From Phycisphaerae bacterium (GTDB taxonomy: Bacteria; Planctomycetota; Phycisphaerae; Phycisphaerales; SM1A02), in NCBI GenBank assembly GCA_002709295.1, contig PAQL01000010.1:39938-79237 (forward strand): 39,300 nt of DNA. Reading direction: 5' to 3'. This document shows, piece by piece, positions 3,449 to 39,228 of the stretch (positions are counted from its first letter, which is position 1; every line of letters starts with the position of its first letter). The notes under the pieces are model-generated. The model was given only the letters and a program-made list of their open reading frames with translations. It was not told the DNA's origin and searched no databases. Made by a program: the position numbers and the translations under genes.

Positions 3449-5869
3449 ATGACACGTTCCTTCCGAAGCCGGGGCACCCCAACGCCAGCATGGAGACCAT
3501 GGATGCAGCGGATCAGCCCGGCACGTCCGACCATGACCGGAGTCCGGCGATGGCTGCTCCGGACCCTGCTGGCCGCCTCCTGCATGCTGGCGACGTGGGC
3601 GAGCCCCACCTCCGCGACCGCGGCGACGTCGGAGACGATCGACCGGGAACGCCGGGCCGAGGAGGACCGGGCGATCGAATCGGCCCGCGACCGGATCGAA
3701 CGTGCCGAAGCCCGACTCGCCGCCGCCTCCGCGGCGCTTCGACTGGACGTGCCACCCAGACTTCGAACCCGGTTGTGGTGGACCCGGGTCGGCGACTCCG
3801 AGGCGGCGATCGGCAGCGAGGCGGCGACCCGGGCCGACCAGCTGGCCTCCTCCACCTTCGCGGAGCTTCTCGCCTCCCGGGAACCTGCCGCCGATCGCCT
3901 GCGGGCCTCGGCCACGACCATCGGAGCGACGGCGCGACTCCTGAAGGCACGAGCGGAACCGACGGCCGGTTTCAATCCGGTCGGTCGACTCGCGGCCTGC
4001 GTGCGTGAAGTCGGCGATGCCGCGGAACGAACCGGCGACATCGACGGCCCCACCCTGCTGATCCTCGCCGCCGCGACGCTGGCGGAGGACCCCTCGGACT
4101 CCGATCGAGCCGGAGAGCTCCATCGACGGGCGAGCATGGTTCCCGAAGGCATCGATGCGATCGAATACGAGTTCATCGGTGCCCTCATCGACGATCCCGA
4201 TCGCAGCGGCGTCACCCCGAGAGGCAGGATCCGAGCCACCGACCGTCTGCTCTCCAGGCCTCGTCCCGCCGCGGACCGTCTCCTTCTGGGTGCGATCCAG
4301 CTCGACGCGAGGCTCGATGCAGGCGAGTCGGCGGAGGCCGCGATCGATGCGACCCGGCGAGCCACGGTGCCGGTCCGAGGGATGGCCGCCACCGATCGGG
4401 TCCGTCTGCTTCGAGGCATCGCGAGCATCGCCGCGACCGCCACCGAAGACACCCCCGTCGAAACACTCCCCCCCCTTGCCGCCCTGGGTCGGATGGCCCC
4501 TCGAGTGTCGACCCCCGACGCGTCGGCCTGGCGTGACTCCGAGGTCCAGGCCCTGATCTCGCGGGCCAGGGACTCCACCAATCCGGAGATCCGGGCCGAA
4601 GTGCTGCTGGACGTCGCCACCCTCGCACTGCGGGCCGGCGAGGCCGAGACCGCCCGGCGCATGCTTCTGGACATGATCGACACCCTGCCCTCCCACCCGC
4701 GGGCGGTGACGGTCGGCGAGCTCGCGGTGCGACTCGCCGAGGCGACCGGCGATGACGCGATCGTCCGAGAGACCTCGAGCCGGACCCTGGACGCGCTTCC
4801 GGAACATCCCGGCCGGGACGCATGGCTGATGAACCGCGCCGAGCGGGCTCGGCTGCGAGGCGATCTGGAGGAGGCGAGATCGTCCTGGGGATCGATTCCC
4901 GAGAGTGCGGAGGCGTTCCCCGAGGCGGATCTCCGGCTGTTGGAACTGGATCTTCCCGACATGCTCGACACCGAGGACCTTCCCCGGTTGAGAGAGGCCA
5001 TCGAACGCCTGGACGGGATCGAGCCCCGTCTGGAACAGGGCACCGACCCCGGACTGCTCATCGAGAGCAGGATCATGCGGATCCGGTGCCTCGAGCGACT
5101 GGGTCGTTCCTCCGAAGCCGGTGACATCGCCTCCGAATACATCGATCTGCAGAACGTGCCGGCCGCCCTGAGAATCCCTCTGGTCGAGGCCTGCGCTCCG
5201 GCCCTGGAGATGGACGGACGTCACGACGAGGCGGCGTCCATGCTGGCCGGGCTCGAACGTCTGCAACCGGGCGCTTCCAACACCATCGCGGCCACCATGC
5301 TGAGGAACGTGTTCGAATCGACCCTCGAGGCGGTCGATCGCAACGATCTCGCCGCGGCGGAGACCATCGCCTCGGATGCCCTGGTGACGACCCCGGTCGA
5401 TGTGGACACCCTGATCTCCTCCAACCAGCGCGACCCCACCGACCTGATCGGAATCGCCTGGCTTCTGGCGGTCGATGGTCGTGAACAGGATGCGCTGCGG
5501 GTCACCGACTCGGTCATCGCCCAGCAACCCTCGGCCATGGAGCCGCTGTACCTCCGAGCCACCATTCTGGGGGGGCGTCTTCGAAATCCGGGTCGGATCA
5601 GAAGCGTGCCGACCATCGAGGATGCAGGCCGGGCGATCAAGGATCTGCGAAGGATCATCGCCGGCACGGGCCGCGGATCGCGATGGTGGTGGCGGGCCGA
5701 ACTCGAGCAACTCGAGATCCTCGTGACCCTCGGTCGGGATCTGGACGGCATCGAGAACCGACTCGATCGACTCCGCAAGGAATTCCCCAATCTCGGCGGC
5801 AAGGCCTTCCAGCGACGAGTCAACGCGCTCGCCCCGGCGATCGCCGAAGCCCGTCGTCGAACCCGATGA
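3449..5869 (+). CDS. large exported helical, TPR-like protein of the vWA/Exb cluster
   Basis: The protein has 806 residues. The ATG at 3449 has GAGGA five bases upstream. The signal peptide then has an unusually long n-region: the hydrophobic core (WLLRTLLAASCMLATWA) lies at about residues 34-50, followed by an Ala-rich cleavage region near 58. An ATG at 3533 would give a normal signal peptide but has no ribosome site. The mature part is almost entirely helical, with an early Arg/Glu-rich coiled-coil-like segment (about 60-95) and many Ala-rich helix pairs resembling degenerate tetratricopeptide repeats. Examples are 'AEVLLDVATLALRAGEAETARRML' (in part) and 'LDALPEHPGRDAWLMNRAERA'. I recognise no catalytic motif. 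It probably acts as a periplasmic scaffold for the ExbB/ExbD complex. The position in the cluster is seen; the function is inferred. Confidence 0.75.
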   Translation: MTRSFRSRGTPTPAWRPWMQRISPARPTMTGVRRWLLRTLLAASCMLATWASPTSATAATSETIDRERRAEEDRAIESARDRIERAEARLAAASAALRLDVPPRLRTRLWWTRVGDSEAAIGSEAATRADQLASSTFAELLASREPAADRLRASATTIGATARLLKARAEPTAGFNPVGRLAACVREVGDAAERTGDIDGPTLLILAAATLAEDPSDSDRAGELHRRASMVPEGIDAIEYEFIGALIDDPDRSGVTPRGRIRATDRLLSRPRPAADRLLLGAIQLDARLDAGESAEAAIDATRRATVPVRGMAATDRVRLLRGIASIAATATEDTPVETLPPLAALGRMAPRVSTPDASAWRDSEVQALISRARDSTNPEIRAEVLLDVATLALRAGEAETARRMLLDMIDTLPSHPRAVTVGELAVRLAEATGDDAIVRETSSRTLDALPEHPGRDAWLMNRAERARLRGDLEEARSSWGSIPESAEAFPEADLRLLELDLPDMLDTEDLPRLREAIERLDGIEPRLEQGTDPGLLIESRIMRIRCLERLGRSSEAGDIASEYIDLQNVPAALRIPLVEACAPALEMDGRHDEAASMLAGLERLQPGASNTIAATMLRNVFESTLEAVDRNDLAAAETIASDALVTTPVDVDTLISSNQRDPTDLIGIAWLLAVDGREQDALRVTDSVIAQQPSAMEPLYLRATILGGRLRNPGRIRSVPTIEDAGRAIKDLRRIIAGTGRGSRWWWRAELEQLEILVTLGRDLDGIENRLDRLRKEFPNLGGKAFQRRVNALAPAIAEARRRTR

Positions 5870-33191: not shown

Positions 33192-33608
33192 GTGAGCCCC
33201 ACCTCGTCATCCCCGCACCAGCGCACCCGCGACGATCACGCCTCGGAGATCGCCGAGGACTACTGCGAGGCGATCGCGGAACTCGAGGACGGCGAGAACG
33301 GCTGCCGGGTGACCGAGCTCGCCTCCCGTTTCGGGGTCTCGCACGTCACGGTGGTCAGGACCGTCAAGCGACTCGAGCGTGACGGCCTCGCCGAGACCCG
33401 ACCCCGCAAGCCGATCCGTCTGACCGAGGCCGGACGCCGCCTCGCCGCGTCCTGCCGCCGGAGACACGAGATCGTCTACCGGTTCCTCCTCGCCATCGGA
33501 GTCGACCCCAGGATCGCCGCGGTCGATGCCGAGGGGATCGAACACCACGTCAGCCCGTCCACGCTGGCCCGCTTCCGAAAGATCGCCGAAGAGCGGACCT
33601 CCGGATGA
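33192..33608 (+). CDS. mntR: manganese-responsive DtxR-family regulator MntR
   Basis: The protein has 138 residues with a GTG start. It matches the Gram-negative MntR type end to end: 'RDDHASEIAEDYCEAIAEL', with the Asp/Glu metal-site residues in the first helix, and a winged helix-turn-helix 'VTELASRFGVSHVTVVRTVKRLERDGL'. 'RPRKPIRLTEAGRRLA' is the wing, 'RRRHEIVYRFLLAIGV' is the H-x3-Y/E helix, and 'DAEGIEHHVSPSTLARF' is the metal-binding EGIEHH motif. MntR with bound Mn(II) represses manganese uptake genes. Its stop is 77 bases before the start of the metal ABC importer genes, which carry a promoter with an MntR-box-like repeat, so the regulator-target relationship is very likely. Confidence 0.93.
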   Translation: MSPTSSSPHQRTRDDHASEIAEDYCEAIAELEDGENGCRVTELASRFGVSHVTVVRTVKRLERDGLAETRPRKPIRLTEAGRRLAASCRRRHEIVYRFLLAIGVDPRIAAVDAEGIEHHVSPSTLARFRKIAEERTSG

Positions 33609-33637
33609 ACCCCTGCTCCGGAGGCCTCGAGAGTCTC

Positions 33638-33666
33638 TTGACCTCTCTTGTAGCCTGGGCTACGAT
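33638..33666 (+). promoter_or_regulatory. importer promoter with overlapping MntR-box-like operator
   Basis: TTGACC (33638-33643), exactly 17 bases, TACGAT (33661-33666). Inside it GTAGC-CTGG-GCTAC (33650-33663) is a perfect inverted repeat that covers the spacer and half of the -10. Its TAGC-N4-GCTA core is the same as in the known enterobacterial MntR box (ACATAGC-N4-GCTATGT). Binding here would block RNA polymerase. Confidence 0.85.
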
Positions 33667-33685
33667 CGTGGGACTGGAGAATCCA

Positions 33686-34663
33686 ATGCACCCTAGTCTT
33701 CGCTCGCTTCTCGCCATCGCATCACTTTTCTGCGGCGGCCTCACCCCGCTCTCCGCGGAGTCCCCGGCCCTCGATCGACCCACGATCGTCTGCACCGTGG
33801 GGATGGTCGCGGACGTCACCCGATCCGTCGCGGGTGATCGCGCGGACGTCTCCAGCCTCATCGGACCGGGTGTCGATCCGCACCTGTACAAGCCGACTCG
33901 ATCCGACATCGGACGGCTGATGAAGGCCGATGTCGTCGTGGCGGTCGGACTGCATCTCGAAGGTCGCATGGACGAGACCCTCGATCGTGCCGCGAAGTCG
34001 GGGCGTACCGTGGTCCGGGTCGGCGAACTCCTGCCGAAGGACCTTCTCCTGCGCGAATCCGAGGAGAACGCCATGGATCCTCATCTCTGGATGAACCCGC
34101 GAGTCTGGGCCATGACCGCGGGGCCGATCTCGAAGGCCCTGTCGAAAGTCGATCCCGAGGGCGCCGAGATCTATGCCTCCAACGCCGCCGCCCTGGTGAA
34201 GAACCTCGAAGAACTGGACGCATGGTCCGCGCAGAGGCTCGCCACGGTGCCCGAGAAGGCCCGGGTCCTGGTGACCGCCCACGACGCCTTCGAGTACTTC
34301 GGACGTCGATACGGATTCGAGGTCGTCGGCATCCAGGGCATCTCCACCGAGAGCGAAGCAGGCGTCCGGGACATCGGCCGGATCGTCGATCTCCTCGTGA
34401 GCCGCGGAATCCCCGCGGTCTTCGTCGAGTCGACCGTCCCACCGCGACACGTCGAGGCGCTGGTCGCCGGAGCCCGGGCTCGAGGACACACCGTCAAGGT
34501 GGGCGGCGAACTCTTCAGCGATGCGATGGGCGATGCCGGCACCTACGAAGGCACCTACCCGGGCATGATCGATCACAACATCACCACCATCGTCCGCGGC
34601 CTCGGCGGTGAAGCCCCGATTCGTGGTCGTCTCGGCAAGCTGGCTGAAGAATCCTCGGGATGA
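33686..34663 (+). CDS. metal ABC transporter substrate-binding protein (cluster A-I, TroA/MntA type)
   Basis: The protein has 325 residues from the ATG at 33686 (GGAGA five bases upstream), which gives a clean signal peptide (residues 1-24, ending TPLSA). A longer start at 33605 would overlap mntR and precede the promoter. The fold and metal ligands fit TroA/ZnuA proteins: H66 in 'DPHLYKP', H133 in 'DPHLWMNP', H199 in '[15 protein letters not shown]' and D279 in 'FSDAMG'. The His3Asp set matches TroA (H68, H133, H199, D279), which takes zinc and manganese, and differs from the His2-Glu-Asp set of PsaA-type manganese proteins. The MntR context nevertheless favours manganese. The stop overlaps the ATPase start by four bases (ATGA). 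Confidence 0.93.
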
Positions 34664-35487
34664 GCCCCGCCCCCCCCGATCGGACCAGCCTGCGTGATCG
34701 GCCCGAGCACTCCAGCTCGAGCCCGCTCTCCATCCACGCCATGACCGTGGCCTACGACCGCAAGCCGGTGCTCTGGGACGTCGACTACGACGCCCCCACG
34801 GGCAGGCTGGTCGCCATCGTCGGTCCCAACGGCGCCGGCAAGAGCACGCTCATCAAGGGATGCCTCGGCCTCGTCCCTCTCGCCAGCGGAGTCGTCGAAT
34901 ACCGGGGGCGACCGCTCGAGGAGGTCCGACAGCGGATCGGCTACGTGCCGCAGCGAGAATCCGTCGACTGGGAGTTTCCGGTGTCGGCGCTCGACGTCAC
35001 CCTGATGGGCCGCTACGGAAGGATCGGCTGGTGCCGGCCCATCGGCCGACGACACCGGGCCGCGGCCCGGGAATGCCTCGAACGCGTCGGCCTCGCGGGA
35101 CTCGAGAACCGGCAGATCGACCAGCTCTCCGGCGGACAGCAGCAGCGGGTCTTCCTCGCCAGGGCGCTCGCCCAGGAGGCGGACCTCTACTTCATGGATG
35201 AACCGTTCGCCGGGGTCGACGCCGCCACCGAACGTGCGATCGTCGAGGTCCTGCGTGACATGCGCGATGCCGGACGGACCGTGATCGTGGTGCATCACGA
35301 CCTCCAGACCGTTCCCGAATACTTCGACGAGGTCCTGCTGCTCAACATGCGGGTCGTGGCCGCCGGCCCGGTCGAGGATGCCTTCACCCGGGAGAATCTC
35401 CAGAAGACCTACGGGGGACGCCTCACGCTGCTCGCCGAAGCCGCGGAGGCGATCGCCAGAGGCCGCCGCGGACGGGATCGCGGATGA
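34660..35487 (+). CDS. metal ABC transporter ATP-binding protein
   Basis: The protein has 275 residues; its ATG overlaps the previous stop (ATGA). It has all ATPase motifs: Walker A 'GPNGAGKST' (55-63), Q-loop region '[17 protein letters not shown]' (about 93-109, the 'DWxFPV' being typical for Mn/Zn/Fe importers), signature 'LSGGQQQR' (156-163), Walker B 'DLYFMDEPF' (175-183) and H-loop 'VIVVHHDL'. A polar, Ser/Pro-rich extension of about 22 residues precedes the ATPase domain, and an Arg/Ala-rich helix ends it. The protein energises the two permeases that follow in the same operon. Its stop again overlaps the next start by four bases. Confidence 0.95.
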
Positions 35488-36836
35488 CCGCCGTCCTCGT
35501 CGGATCAGACGCTGCGGACTGGTCGGAGCTCCTTGAACTGGCGACCTTCCAGGGCGGTTTCAACGCCACCATCGTGACCATCGGCACCATGATGCTGGGC
35601 ATATCCGCGGGAGTGGTGGGTGTCTTCGCCCTGCTCCGACGACGCGCCCTCGTGGCCGATGCCCTCAGCCACGCCACCCTTCCCGGCATCGCGATCGCCT
35701 TCATGGCCTCCATCCTTCTGGGCGGCGACGGACGTTCCCTGCCGTTGCTTCTCGCCGGAGCCGCGGTCAGCGGGGTGGCGGGCGTCCTGGCGATCCAGGC
35801 TCTCGGGCGGTGGACCCGACTGCGGGAGGACGCCTCGATCGCCATCGTCCTCAGCGTCTCCTTCGGCATCGGGGTGGTGCTGCTGAGCTGGATACAGAGC
35901 AACGAACCCTCGAGCTCCGCCGGACTCGACCACTTCATCTACGGACGCACCGCCTCGATGCTTCCCGGTGACGCCTGGACGATGTCCCTGCTCGCGGTCG
36001 TCACGGTCACCCTGACCACGACCCTGCGACGTGAGTTCGGCCTGGTCTGCTTCGACCGGGACTTCGCGATCTCGACCGGCTGGCCGGTGGGCCTGATCGA
36101 TCTGCTGATGCTGGGACTGGTGGTCCTGGTGACCGTGGCGGGACTCCAGGCGGTCGGCATCGTGCTGGTGGTCGCGATGATCGTGATCCCACCCGTGGCG
36201 GCACGGTTCTGGACCGATCGACTCCGGGTCCTGCTGGTGCTCTCCGGAACCCTCGGCGGCCTCGGTGGATGGTTCGGGGCGGTGATCTCCGCAGGACTTC
36301 CCAACCAGCCCGCCGGTGCGGTCATCGTGCTCACGACCGGTGCGGTCTTCGCGATCAGCATGCTCCTCGCCCCGCGTCGAGGCGTGATCGCCATCGCCCT
36401 GCGTCGATTCGCCCTGCGGATCCGGATGGAGGGCGACCATGTCCTCGAGGCCGCGTGGGATCACGCCGCGGATCGAGGCATCGACCACCCCCGCCTCGAG
36501 GTTGACATGCTCCGAAGGATCGCCCGGGAGCGAGGCTGGACCCCCCTGTTCAACCGGCTCGTGAGAATGGCCCTTCATCGATCACGCATGATCATGAAGA
36601 CCTCCGCAGGATCGATCGAGCTCACCCCATCGGGTCGACGACGCGGTGCGACCGTCGCCAGGAATCATCTGCTCTGGGAGCGGTACCTCACCACCCATGC
36701 GGACGTCGCGCCGAACCACGTCGACTGGTCCGTGGACCAGGTCGAGCACGTCCTGTCCGCGGAACTGGTGGCAAGTCTGGAGGAGGCCCTGGTCGCCGAA
36801 GGTGTGGACGTCCCCCCGCGGGAGTCGTCGCCTTGA
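35484..36836 (+). CDS. metal ABC permease fused to a DtxR/MntR-like C-terminal domain (first)
   Basis: The protein has 450 residues, about 150 more than an ordinary ABC-3 permease. Residues about 25-300 form the permease with eight or so helices and family motifs '[18 protein letters not shown]' and '[20 protein letters not shown]'. Residues about 335-395 look like a winged helix ('[20 protein letters not shown]', '[14 protein letters not shown]'). Residues 393-437 align with the DtxR/MntR metal-binding and dimerisation helices: H395 and E399 ('[10 protein letters not shown]', equal to DtxR H79/E83), then D418, E421 and H422 in 'VDQVEHVLS' (equal to DtxR C102/E105/H106; MntR has Glu at the first). 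The usual H98 position is D414. The domain should face the cytoplasm. A metal-sensing feedback role, or cleavage as in chlamydial YtgCR, is inferred. Confidence 0.9.
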
Positions 36837-38137
36837 ACTCCCTCGATCCCGCTCTCGATCTCTTTCCCCTCGCGGCGTCCATCCTCGCGGCGATCACCTG
36901 CGGGGTGCTGGGGAACTTCCTGCTTCTCCGCCGTGAAAGCCTGATGGGCGACGCCATCTCCCATGGCGTGCTGCCCGGACTGGTGATCGGATTCCTGATC
37001 ACCGGGGACCGGAGCCCGTTCACCATGCTGATCGGCGCCACCGTCGCGGGCATCGCGACCGTGCTTCTGGTCATGCTGGTGCGACGGCTGGGACGCGTCG
37101 AGGCGGGAGCCGCGATGGGCGTCGTGTTCAGCGTCCTCTTCGCACTCGGAGTGCTGCTCATCGAGCGAGCGGCTCGTCAGACCGACATCGACGCGGACTG
37201 CGTGCTGCACGGCCAGCTCGAGACGCTCGCCTGGTACGACGCCCCCGCCCTGTGGCGCGACGTGCCCGCCTGGACGACGATCGAGAGCATCCCCCGACAG
37301 GTGTGGGGTCTGGTGATCGCCTGTCTTCTGGCCTGCGGATTCGTGATCGCCTTCTTCAAGGAACTCCGACTGGCCGCCTTCGATCCGGGACTCGCCTCCT
37401 CGCTCGGTCTTCGCCCCCGGGCGATCGATCTGGTCACCATGGTGCTGGTGGCGATCGCCACTGTGGCGAGTTTCGAGGCCGTGGGTTCGATCCTCGTGAT
37501 CGCGATGCTGATCTGCCCGGCCGCCACCGCCCGCCTGCTCACCGACCGGCTTTCCCGGCAGGTCCTCCTCAGCGTGGTGGTGGCGATCGCGACCGCGGTG
37601 CTGGGCTACCGCGCCGCGACGGTCGTGCCGTCCTGGTTCGATGACGAATCGGTCAACGCCGCGGGATCGATGGCGATGACCGCCGGAATCATCCTCGTGG
37701 CCGCGATCCTGCTCGCCCCCGTCCACGGCGTGGTCTCCAGAAGCATCCGGTCCCGGCGTCTGGCCCGTCGCATCGCGGTCGACGATCTCCTCGCCACCCT
37801 GCTTCGCACCGAAGAGGCTCGTTCACCGGATGCGGTGCCGGCTTCGGCCGTGAATCTCCTCCGCCCGCCGAAACCCGCCGCGATCGAGCGGGCCCGCCGG
37901 TCGGGCCTCGTCGAGGGCCGTTCCGGCTCCGACCTGAGACTCACCGAGGATGGCCGCCGGGTCGCGCGGGACGTGCTGCGGCGACACCGTCTCTGGGAGA
38001 CCTACCTCGTCGAGGAGGCCGGCCTCTCTCCCGATCACGTCCACGACCCCGCCGAGGTCCTGGAGCACCTCGGCCCCATCCCGTCGATCAGGTCCAGCCG
38101 GGACCCGCACGGCCGCCCCATCCCCGACCCCGACTGA
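36833..38137 (+). CDS. metal ABC permease fused to a DtxR/MntR-like C-terminal domain (second)
   Basis: The protein has 434 residues. The start is TTG at 36833, overlapping the previous stop (TTGA). Residues about 10-300 are an ABC-3 permease ('LLLRRESLMGDAISHGVLPGL' in pattern, 'AVGSILVIAMLICPAATARLL'). A cytoplasmic extension follows: a shortened winged helix (about 345-383, 'AAIERARRSGLVEGRSGSDL', 'LRLTEDGRRVA') and the DtxR-type metal region. Here every ligand position is kept: H385 and E389 ('RRHRLWETYL'), H404, E408, E411 and H412 in 'VHDPAEVLEHLG'. The last dimerisation helix is cut short and replaced by a polar tail. It differs clearly from the first permease, so the pair is an old heterodimer-type arrangement. 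Both permeases carrying a sensor-like domain is unusual. Confidence 0.9.
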   Translation: MNSLDPALDLFPLAASILAAITCGVLGNFLLLRRESLMGDAISHGVLPGLVIGFLITGDRSPFTMLIGATVAGIATVLLVMLVRRLGRVEAGAAMGVVFSVLFALGVLLIERAARQTDIDADCVLHGQLETLAWYDAPALWRDVPAWTTIESIPRQVWGLVIACLLACGFVIAFFKELRLAAFDPGLASSLGLRPRAIDLVTMVLVAIATVASFEAVGSILVIAMLICPAATARLLTDRLSRQVLLSVVVAIATAVLGYRAATVVPSWFDDESVNAAGSMAMTAGIILVAAILLAPVHGVVSRSIRSRRLARRIAVDDLLATLLRTEEARSPDAVPASAVNLLRPPKPAAIERARRSGLVEGRSGSDLRLTEDGRRVARDVLRRHRLWETYLVEEAGLSPDHVHDPAEVLEHLGPIPSIRSSRDPHGRPIPDPD

Positions 38138-38208: not shown

Positions 38209-39228
38209 TCAATCGCGATGTCTTGCATGACACGCGATGCAGGAGCTCCGAACCGCCGCCATGGAGCGGTCCAGGGCCACCCGATCGACACGCGGCGCCA
38301 GCAGCAGCGACTCCAGCGCCGACACCTTGCGGGCGTCATGGGCCAACCGGGCCTTGAAGTCGGGGTCGGCCTCGCCCTTCGCCCGGGCTCCCTCGGACGC
38401 GATCCGAAGCAGGTCGGCGAGCCGTCCCGCCTCCGCTGCGGGCACGAGATCCGGGTGGTCTTCGGGGGTGCGCCACCCGGCATCCGAGATCAGCTGGAGA
38501 TGCTCGAGGACGAGATCCATCCGGATCATCGCATCGACGAAGTCGTCCGGACGATCGACCGCGGGAAAGTCCGAAGCGATCGAATCGAGGTCCGCCTGCT
38601 CGAACCGCGTGGAACTGGAGGCCCGCTGAAAGAGCCCCCGGTAGCGAGGCGAGGTGCCCGACACGTGCATCCGTTCGATCACCTCGTCCGGACTCGCCCA
38701 GCCCGCACCGACCACGACCGCCGCGGCCGCACATGCACTCCGGTGCATGCCATGGTGGCAGTGGATGTAGACCACTCCATCCTCGAGACCGTCGAGCACC
38801 GCCCGGGTCAGCTGCAGACGGCGATGCTCGTCGAAGCCGTCGTAGCCGACGGGCAGGTGGATGTAGCGCATTCCACGAACCCGTGCGGCGTCGACCGCCG
38901 GTGTCGCTCCGTCGACGCTCACGATGGTGCGGACTCCCATGCCCGCCAGACTGTCCATTCCGGTCTCCGCATGTGGAGCGCTTCCGGAGACGACGTTCTC
39001 ATGAAAGGCGACGAGATTGCTCAGTCCGGGTGCGGCCGCGGGTGCCATGACGTCGGGCGTCGGGACCGACGGGGAGTGCCGTACGGACGCCGCCGGCACC
39101 GCCTCGACCAGTCGACCCCGGTCCGGACCGCAGCCCGCTCCCTCGAGAAGCAGCGATGCCGCCAGAGGTACCAACCACCAGAGAGGATGTCGGAACCCGC
39201 GTGGCGGGGCGAGGTCTTCCAAGGACAT
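38209..39228 (-). CDS. lipoprotein with tyrosine-phosphatase-like and cytochrome c'-like parts
   Basis: The protein has 339 residues. The N-terminal hydrophobic segment (16-32) ends 'LEGAGC', a plausible lipobox with C33. Residues about 70-195 fit a dual-specificity (cysteine-based) protein phosphatase: a 'MGVRTIVSVDGATP' strand, a possible general acid D130 in 'VGYDGFDEH', and the P-loop 'YIHCHHGMHRSACAAAA' with the CX5R signature (C157, R163). Residues about 220-339 are helical and end in a haem-binding CxxCH (C330, C333, H334) nearly at the C-terminus, with a basic 'HARHRD' after it, as in class II cytochrome c'. Both parts would be periplasmic. The combination is unusual. There is no Shine-Dalgarno; a -10-like TAGAGT lies six bases before the ATG. 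Confidence 0.85.
   Translation of the reverse strand: MSLEDLAPPRGFRHPLWWLVPLAASLLLEGAGCGPDRGRLVEAVPAASVRHSPSVPTPDVMAPAAAPGLSNLVAFHENVVSGSAPHAETGMDSLAGMGVRTIVSVDGATPAVDAARVRGMRYIHLPVGYDGFDEHRRLQLTRAVLDGLEDGVVYIHCHHGMHRSACAAAAVVVGAGWASPDEVIERMHVSGTSPRYRGLFQRASSSTRFEQADLDSIASDFPAVDRPDDFVDAMIRMDLVLEHLQLISDAGWRTPEDHPDLVPAAEAGRLADLLRIASEGARAKGEADPDFKARLAHDARKVSALESLLLAPRVDRVALDRSMAAVRSSCIACHARHRD

Follow-up and report, generated by a model that had tools for sequence, protein, structure and literature searches.

A planctomycete protein family joining a CX5R phosphatase-fold domain to a predicted class II cytochrome c domain

In the class II cytochromes b562 and c556 the haem is Met/His ligated, and the Met lies on helix A. 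An open cytochrome c' lacks a distal protein ligand, and a distal Met that does not ligate the haem occurs in at least one true cytochrome c'. Among CX5R proteins, TpbA is a periplasmic phosphatase whose catalysis involves Cys132 and probably Asp105 (PMC4409338). The PTP-fold DUF442 domain of Blh is a proven sulfurtransferase, and its partner in that protein is the ETHE1 sulfur dioxygenase (PMC5823870). No description of a CX5R-cytochrome fusion was found in the literature, with thin coverage of subscription journals, and none of the families searched describes a CX5R plus class II cytochrome c architecture. The protein reported here apparently represents an undescribed combination of known domains.

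The gene was found in a stretch of 39,300 nucleotides (the window, G000:C10:39938-79237) within a 3.68 Mb draft genome of a Phycisphaerae bacterium. Its coding sequence (38209..39228, minus strand, as are all features of the protein given below) starts with ATG, contains no internal stops and encodes 339 amino acids followed by a stop codon, and full-length homologues were found. The complete P-loop (C157-R163) and the CxxCH motif (C330-H334) noticed in the first-pass annotation are present at exactly these residues. The N-terminus is hydrophobic, and a signal sequence extends up to C33 (39130..39228), terminating in GAGC33. The lipobox claimed for this site, L-L-L-E-G-A-G-C33, is weak, since Gly occupies position -3 and Glu position -4, and fails the strict bacterial lipobox pattern; the claim fares better in some relatives, among them L070 from the same genus, where the site is canonical (L-V-G-C). 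Since lipobox-like sites also occur in 71 of 144 relatives by a crude pattern count, the window copy is probably, though not certainly, exported as a lipoprotein. PTP-SAK (PF22784) was the only Pfam family passed by the protein, narrowly (27.3 bits against a cut-off of 27, over residues 79-210), and no NCBIfam model was matched.

The fusion is a phylum-wide family of Planctomycetota and not a one-off. Of 101 genomes of relatives searched at the protein level, 49 gave matches, and every complete fused homologue recovered carries both motifs within one open frame. Scanning GTDB with the P-loop as seed yielded at least 457 relatives. Among the best 80 of the 457, which the motif check covers, CxxCH is present in 78 and the other two loci are cut by contig ends; nearly all of these 80 have planctomycete titles, with a few bins labelled 'uncultured bacterium' or named for other organisms. 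Of the 343 Planctomycetota genomes sampled in a profile search, about 105, from about 31 families as counted from the table, contain the full-length fusion, and these matches separate sharply from weaker PTP-only ones. All distant full-length members that were fetched retain both motifs. Conservation was counted over 144 non-redundant full-length relatives, complete chromosomes included. The positions invariant in this set include P85, H124, P126, C157, G160, R163, L199, M234, C330, C333 and H334, and D106, Y129 and H156 are each kept in 143 members. One member (L035:636-2177, minus strand) has an N-terminal extension of about 170 amino acids before the fusion, without a Pfam match.

These counts bear on the reading that two genes were merged by a frameshift or an assembly error, or that the CxxCH arose by chance. 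The draft status of the window genome speaks for such an artefact and nothing further does, whereas the same architecture in 144 relatives refutes it, so that its probability is negligible. A chance motif, a frameshift or a misassembly is excluded by the occurrence of both motifs in one frame across many independent assemblies. The pairing of CX5R and haem motifs in one exported protein, as first noticed, is thus real. Of the two grounds named in advance for dismissing it, the frameshift or assembly error is not borne out, and the predicted C-terminal fold is a four-helix bundle, as in cytochrome c'.

The structure of residues 55-339 was predicted by AlphaFold2 from 68 sequences (mean pLDDT 95.2, pTM 0.86) as an alpha/beta domain with four helices C-terminal to it. 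The alpha/beta part is a CX5R, or dual-specificity phosphatase-like, domain of approximately residues 67-210 (38599..39030), supported by the PTP-SAK match and by comparison of the model with TpbA and DUSP23. Its P-loop, HCHHGMHRS (residues 156-164, 38737..38763), contains the invariant C157, G160 and R163. The modelled domain matches TpbA 4r0s (E 1.4e-5; Z 16.5, rmsd 2.9, 155 residues aligned) and DUSP23 2img (Z 16.8, rmsd 2.6, 143 aligned), and DUF442 is also among its fold matches. With the catalytic Cys and Arg in 144 of 144 members and a DSP fold in the model, the domain belongs to the DSP/PTP CX5R superfamily. Other residues are kept less strictly. D130 (38839..38841) aligns with Asp105, the proposed general acid of TpbA (PMC4409338), and this position is Asp in 71 relatives (49%), Asn in 41 and Ser in 17. 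The residue following the P-loop Arg, position 164, is Ser in 100, Gly in 37 and Ala in 7, i.e. Ser/Thr in 69%. Since the acid is present in half of the family and Ser/Thr after the Arg in 69%, plain phosphatase chemistry of this domain is uncertain. The initial term 'phosphatase' therefore holds for the fold but not as a settled activity.

Two alternatives draw on this pattern. In one, the domain would be a sulfur enzyme in which C157 serves as a rhodanese-like persulfide or thiol carrier, comparable to Blh DUF442, with the haem accepting electrons from the oxidation of thiols or sulfane sulfur. A PTP-fold sulfurtransferase is precedented in DUF442 (PMC5823870), many members have weak matches to the BLH_phosphatase, TIGR01244 and Blh models, and the incomplete conservation of the general acid and of Ser/Thr164 fits, as do a thiol peroxidase fusion in one genus and a rhodanese gene adjoining the fusion in a few relatives. 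However, the latter are close relatives only, the first-domain profile is more similar to TpbA (7e-12) than to DUF442 (3gxg, 5e-8), and the window protein stays below the cut-off of the DUF442 model (16.6 bits against 26.1); we consider this alternative doubtful. In the other, a pseudo- or slow phosphatase, the CX5R pocket would bind a phosphorylated ligand as in PRL phosphatases, and the haem domain would report on it or dock. PRL structures do occur among the fold and profile matches, and 21 of the 144 members have neither D130 nor Ser/Thr164, but the Cys and Arg are strictly invariant and the window copy retains both D130 and S164, which makes this reading quite improbable.

The remainder of the protein, residues 223-339 (38212..38562), is predicted to form a four-helix class II cytochrome c domain, with helices at residues 230-249, 263-278, 289-310 and 316-337. 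Its C-terminal sequence is SSCIACHARHRD. The haem-attachment motif C330-I-A-C333-H334 (38227..38241), invariant in 144 of 144 relatives, is placed on the last helix of the modelled bundle. At +4 from the haem His is R338 (38215..38217), a cytochrome c'-like feature found in all 142 relatives having a letter at this position. A profile of the last 120 residues reaches cytochromes c' in PDB (5b3i/8rkp, E 3.2e-6) as well as b562 and c556, and the PDB sequences best matched over a single stretch are cytochromes c'. Designed PPR proteins match the same profile equally well (2e-6) via many sub-threshold repeats, and for this reason only single-stretch cytochrome matches that align the CxxCH were counted. 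The window protein itself remains sub-threshold for Pfam cytochrome c' (13.6 bits against a cut-off of 26.5, over residues 289-338), while family members reach 1e-7 with Cytochrom_C_2 (PF01322) and one, L035, exceeds the cut-off with 30.1 bits.

The comparison of folds, which the first-pass annotation had proposed as a check, bore out the bundle but not its identity. When the C-terminal domain was modelled alone from its single sequence (pLDDT 83), Foldseek gave no matches at E <= 0.001. Cytochromes c' superpose on this model with Z 11.2-11.4 (rmsd 2.5-2.8, 108-110 residues aligned), and PsbQ and other four-helix bundles equal or exceed these scores. The fold alone being non-discriminating, the assignment rests on the placement of CxxCH, the Arg at +4, the sequence profile and the Pfam matches of relatives. 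On these grounds, a class II, cytochrome c'-type domain as originally suggested is supported, and haem would be attached covalently to it.

The distal side of this haem is where the original suggestion has to be narrowed. M234 (38527..38529), the fifth residue of helix A, occurs in every one of the 144 relatives, and the split-off cytochromes described below have a Met at the aligned position. With helix A antiparallel to the haem helix, and H334 located three residues before the latter ends, M234 is expected at a height similar to H334. In alignments it is offset by one helical turn from the Met ligands of c556 (hhalign) and b562, in opposite directions, and for this reason M234 is put forward as the sixth ligand only by inference. 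We consider it fairly probable that the haem is Met/His ligated through M234 and H334 and is of the c556/b562-like, electron-transfer type. A literature search on c556 ligation returned nothing usable. An open, gas-binding cytochrome c' in the strict sense is disfavored by the invariant Met in fused and split forms alike.

The same residue weakens the idea of a gas- or haem-sensing switch, in which binding of NO or CO by an open cytochrome c' would activate or inactivate a periplasmic protein-tyrosine phosphatase. That idea draws on the class II fold, the cytochrome c'-like CxxCHxxxR and the cytochromes c' among the best PDB matches, and on TpbA, the nearest solved relative of the CX5R domain, being a periplasmic phosphatase (PMC4409338). 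Against it stand M234, which is at odds with an empty distal site, and the poorly kept general acid, and we regard such a switch as unlikely. Of the two roles first offered for the haem domain, a sensing switch on a phosphatase or a redox partner of one, the latter fits better.

The search for cytochrome c maturation genes proposed at the outset was half successful. The genome encodes a CcsA-type haem lyase (PF01578, 112.8 bits), and ResB was not found in it, for which divergence or draft quality may account. The CcsA-type gene appears twice with equal scores (C2:356-1075 and C26:81323-82042), one copy being at a contig start, and the duplicates are likely an unmerged assembly overlap. The same assembly also contains a small class II cytochrome with an RTIM motif (L155, G000:C31:118787-118936), which could represent either a protein of the c556 type or a contaminating contig.

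Unfused and further-fused forms indicate that the two domains belong together. Directly downstream of the two nearest PTP-only relatives (L221 and L222), at distances of 48 and 0 bases, lies a gene for a class II cytochrome c that carries a signal sequence. The same pair of genes at a contig end (L227) is probably a third split case. No class II cytochrome was found near the other PTP-only loci examined, whose P-loops nearly all end in DRT. In the tree of PTP domains, fused and split forms lie on one side of a branch with SH-aLRT support of 92, and the fused forms group together (95) with the split forms outside them. This branching order suggests that an operon of PTP and cytochrome genes existed first and was later fused. 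In one genus, four proteins have an additional N-terminal glutathione peroxidase-like domain, giving a triple fusion of glutathione peroxidase, CX5R and class II cytochrome c (L034:5533-7017 and L012:889-2400, for instance); Pfam GSHPx matches two such proteins at 2e-39 and 7e-38. The conserved fusion, the adjacent cytochrome gene in the nearest unfused relatives and the peroxidase fusion together establish the association. At a further locus, the fused gene (L216:2467-3486) is directly followed by a stand-alone class II cytochrome (3697-4194), apparently a partial duplicate.

The gene neighborhood was less informative. No conserved neighbor that would name a partner was found across the loci fetched. 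As had been stated at first, the convergent metal importer downstream does not explain the fusion: of the close relatives checked, only the one from the same genus has it alongside the gene. This importer (window positions 33192-38137, plus strand) consists of a ZnuA-type binding protein, an ATPase and two permeases behind a DtxR-type regulator. The ABC-3 membrane domain of both permeases is fused to an iron-dependent-repressor dimerisation domain (PF02742; E 3.5e-10 and 1.7e-15) at the C-terminus.

Taken as a whole, the observations are best explained by coupling between the haem and the cysteine chemistry of a CX5R enzyme, a proposal to which we give an even chance. The protein would be an exported, usually membrane-anchored two-domain enzyme in which a TpbA-like CX5R domain is hard-wired to a class II c-type haem, held covalently on the CxxCH with H334 and most likely M234 as axial ligands. 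The haem domain would then carry electrons and not bind gas. Electrons may pass between C157 and the haem, or the redox state of the haem may set the activity of the cysteine; the substrate could be a phosphate ester or anhydride, or a thiol or persulfide. The most economical reading of a cysteine enzyme with a tethered electron-transfer haem, which in one lineage also has a thiol peroxidase fused to it, is that the cysteine is redox-coupled, and a phosphatase switched by the haem redox state is equally open. We tentatively go one step further and suggest, as a possibility with the balance against it, that the P-loop cysteine exchanges electrons with the tethered haem. The family would then be a phosphatase-derived redox catalyst acting on thiols, persulfides or peroxides, whose history from operon to fusion is visible in Planctomycetota.

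Complete plasmid records of two named strains, Aquisphaera giovannonii OJF2 and Planctomyces sp. SH-PL62, carry the fusion; the A. giovannonii protein is WP_148599161.1. The annotation of the two plasmid-borne relatives reads 'dual specificity protein phosphatase' in one case and 'hypothetical protein' in the other, and with such annotations the haem half has been overlooked. The family is common in a phylum whose envelope biology is poorly understood. If an electron-transfer haem is indeed wired to the CX5R cysteine, this would constitute a new coupling of respiration or redox state to phosphatase-fold envelope chemistry.

When compared with known systems, the fusion resembles each of them in one half. 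TpbA of Pseudomonas aeruginosa (4r0s, 2m3v), likewise an exported DSP-fold CX5R protein, is its nearest solved relative by both sequence and fold, but TpbA stops after the DSP domain, without a haem domain. Its P-loop is HCKHGNNRT as compared to HCHHGxHR[SGA] in the fusion family, half of which does not retain the proposed TpbA general acid. The Pfam model PTP-SAK (PF22784) likewise spans the phosphatase-like domain only and not the haem half. The DUF442 proteins of the Blh/CstB type share a PTP fold with a reactive Cys and weak profile similarity to the family, whereas their partner domain is ETHE1 instead of a cytochrome, and the window protein falls below their cut-off. Finally, the class II cytochromes c (cytochromes c' such as 5b3i, 3vrc and Alcaligenes c'; c556, 1s05; and b562) have the four-helix bundle, the CxxCH on the last helix and the Arg at +4 in common with the haem half; in contrast to them, the fusion family is joined to an enzyme domain and has an invariant M234.
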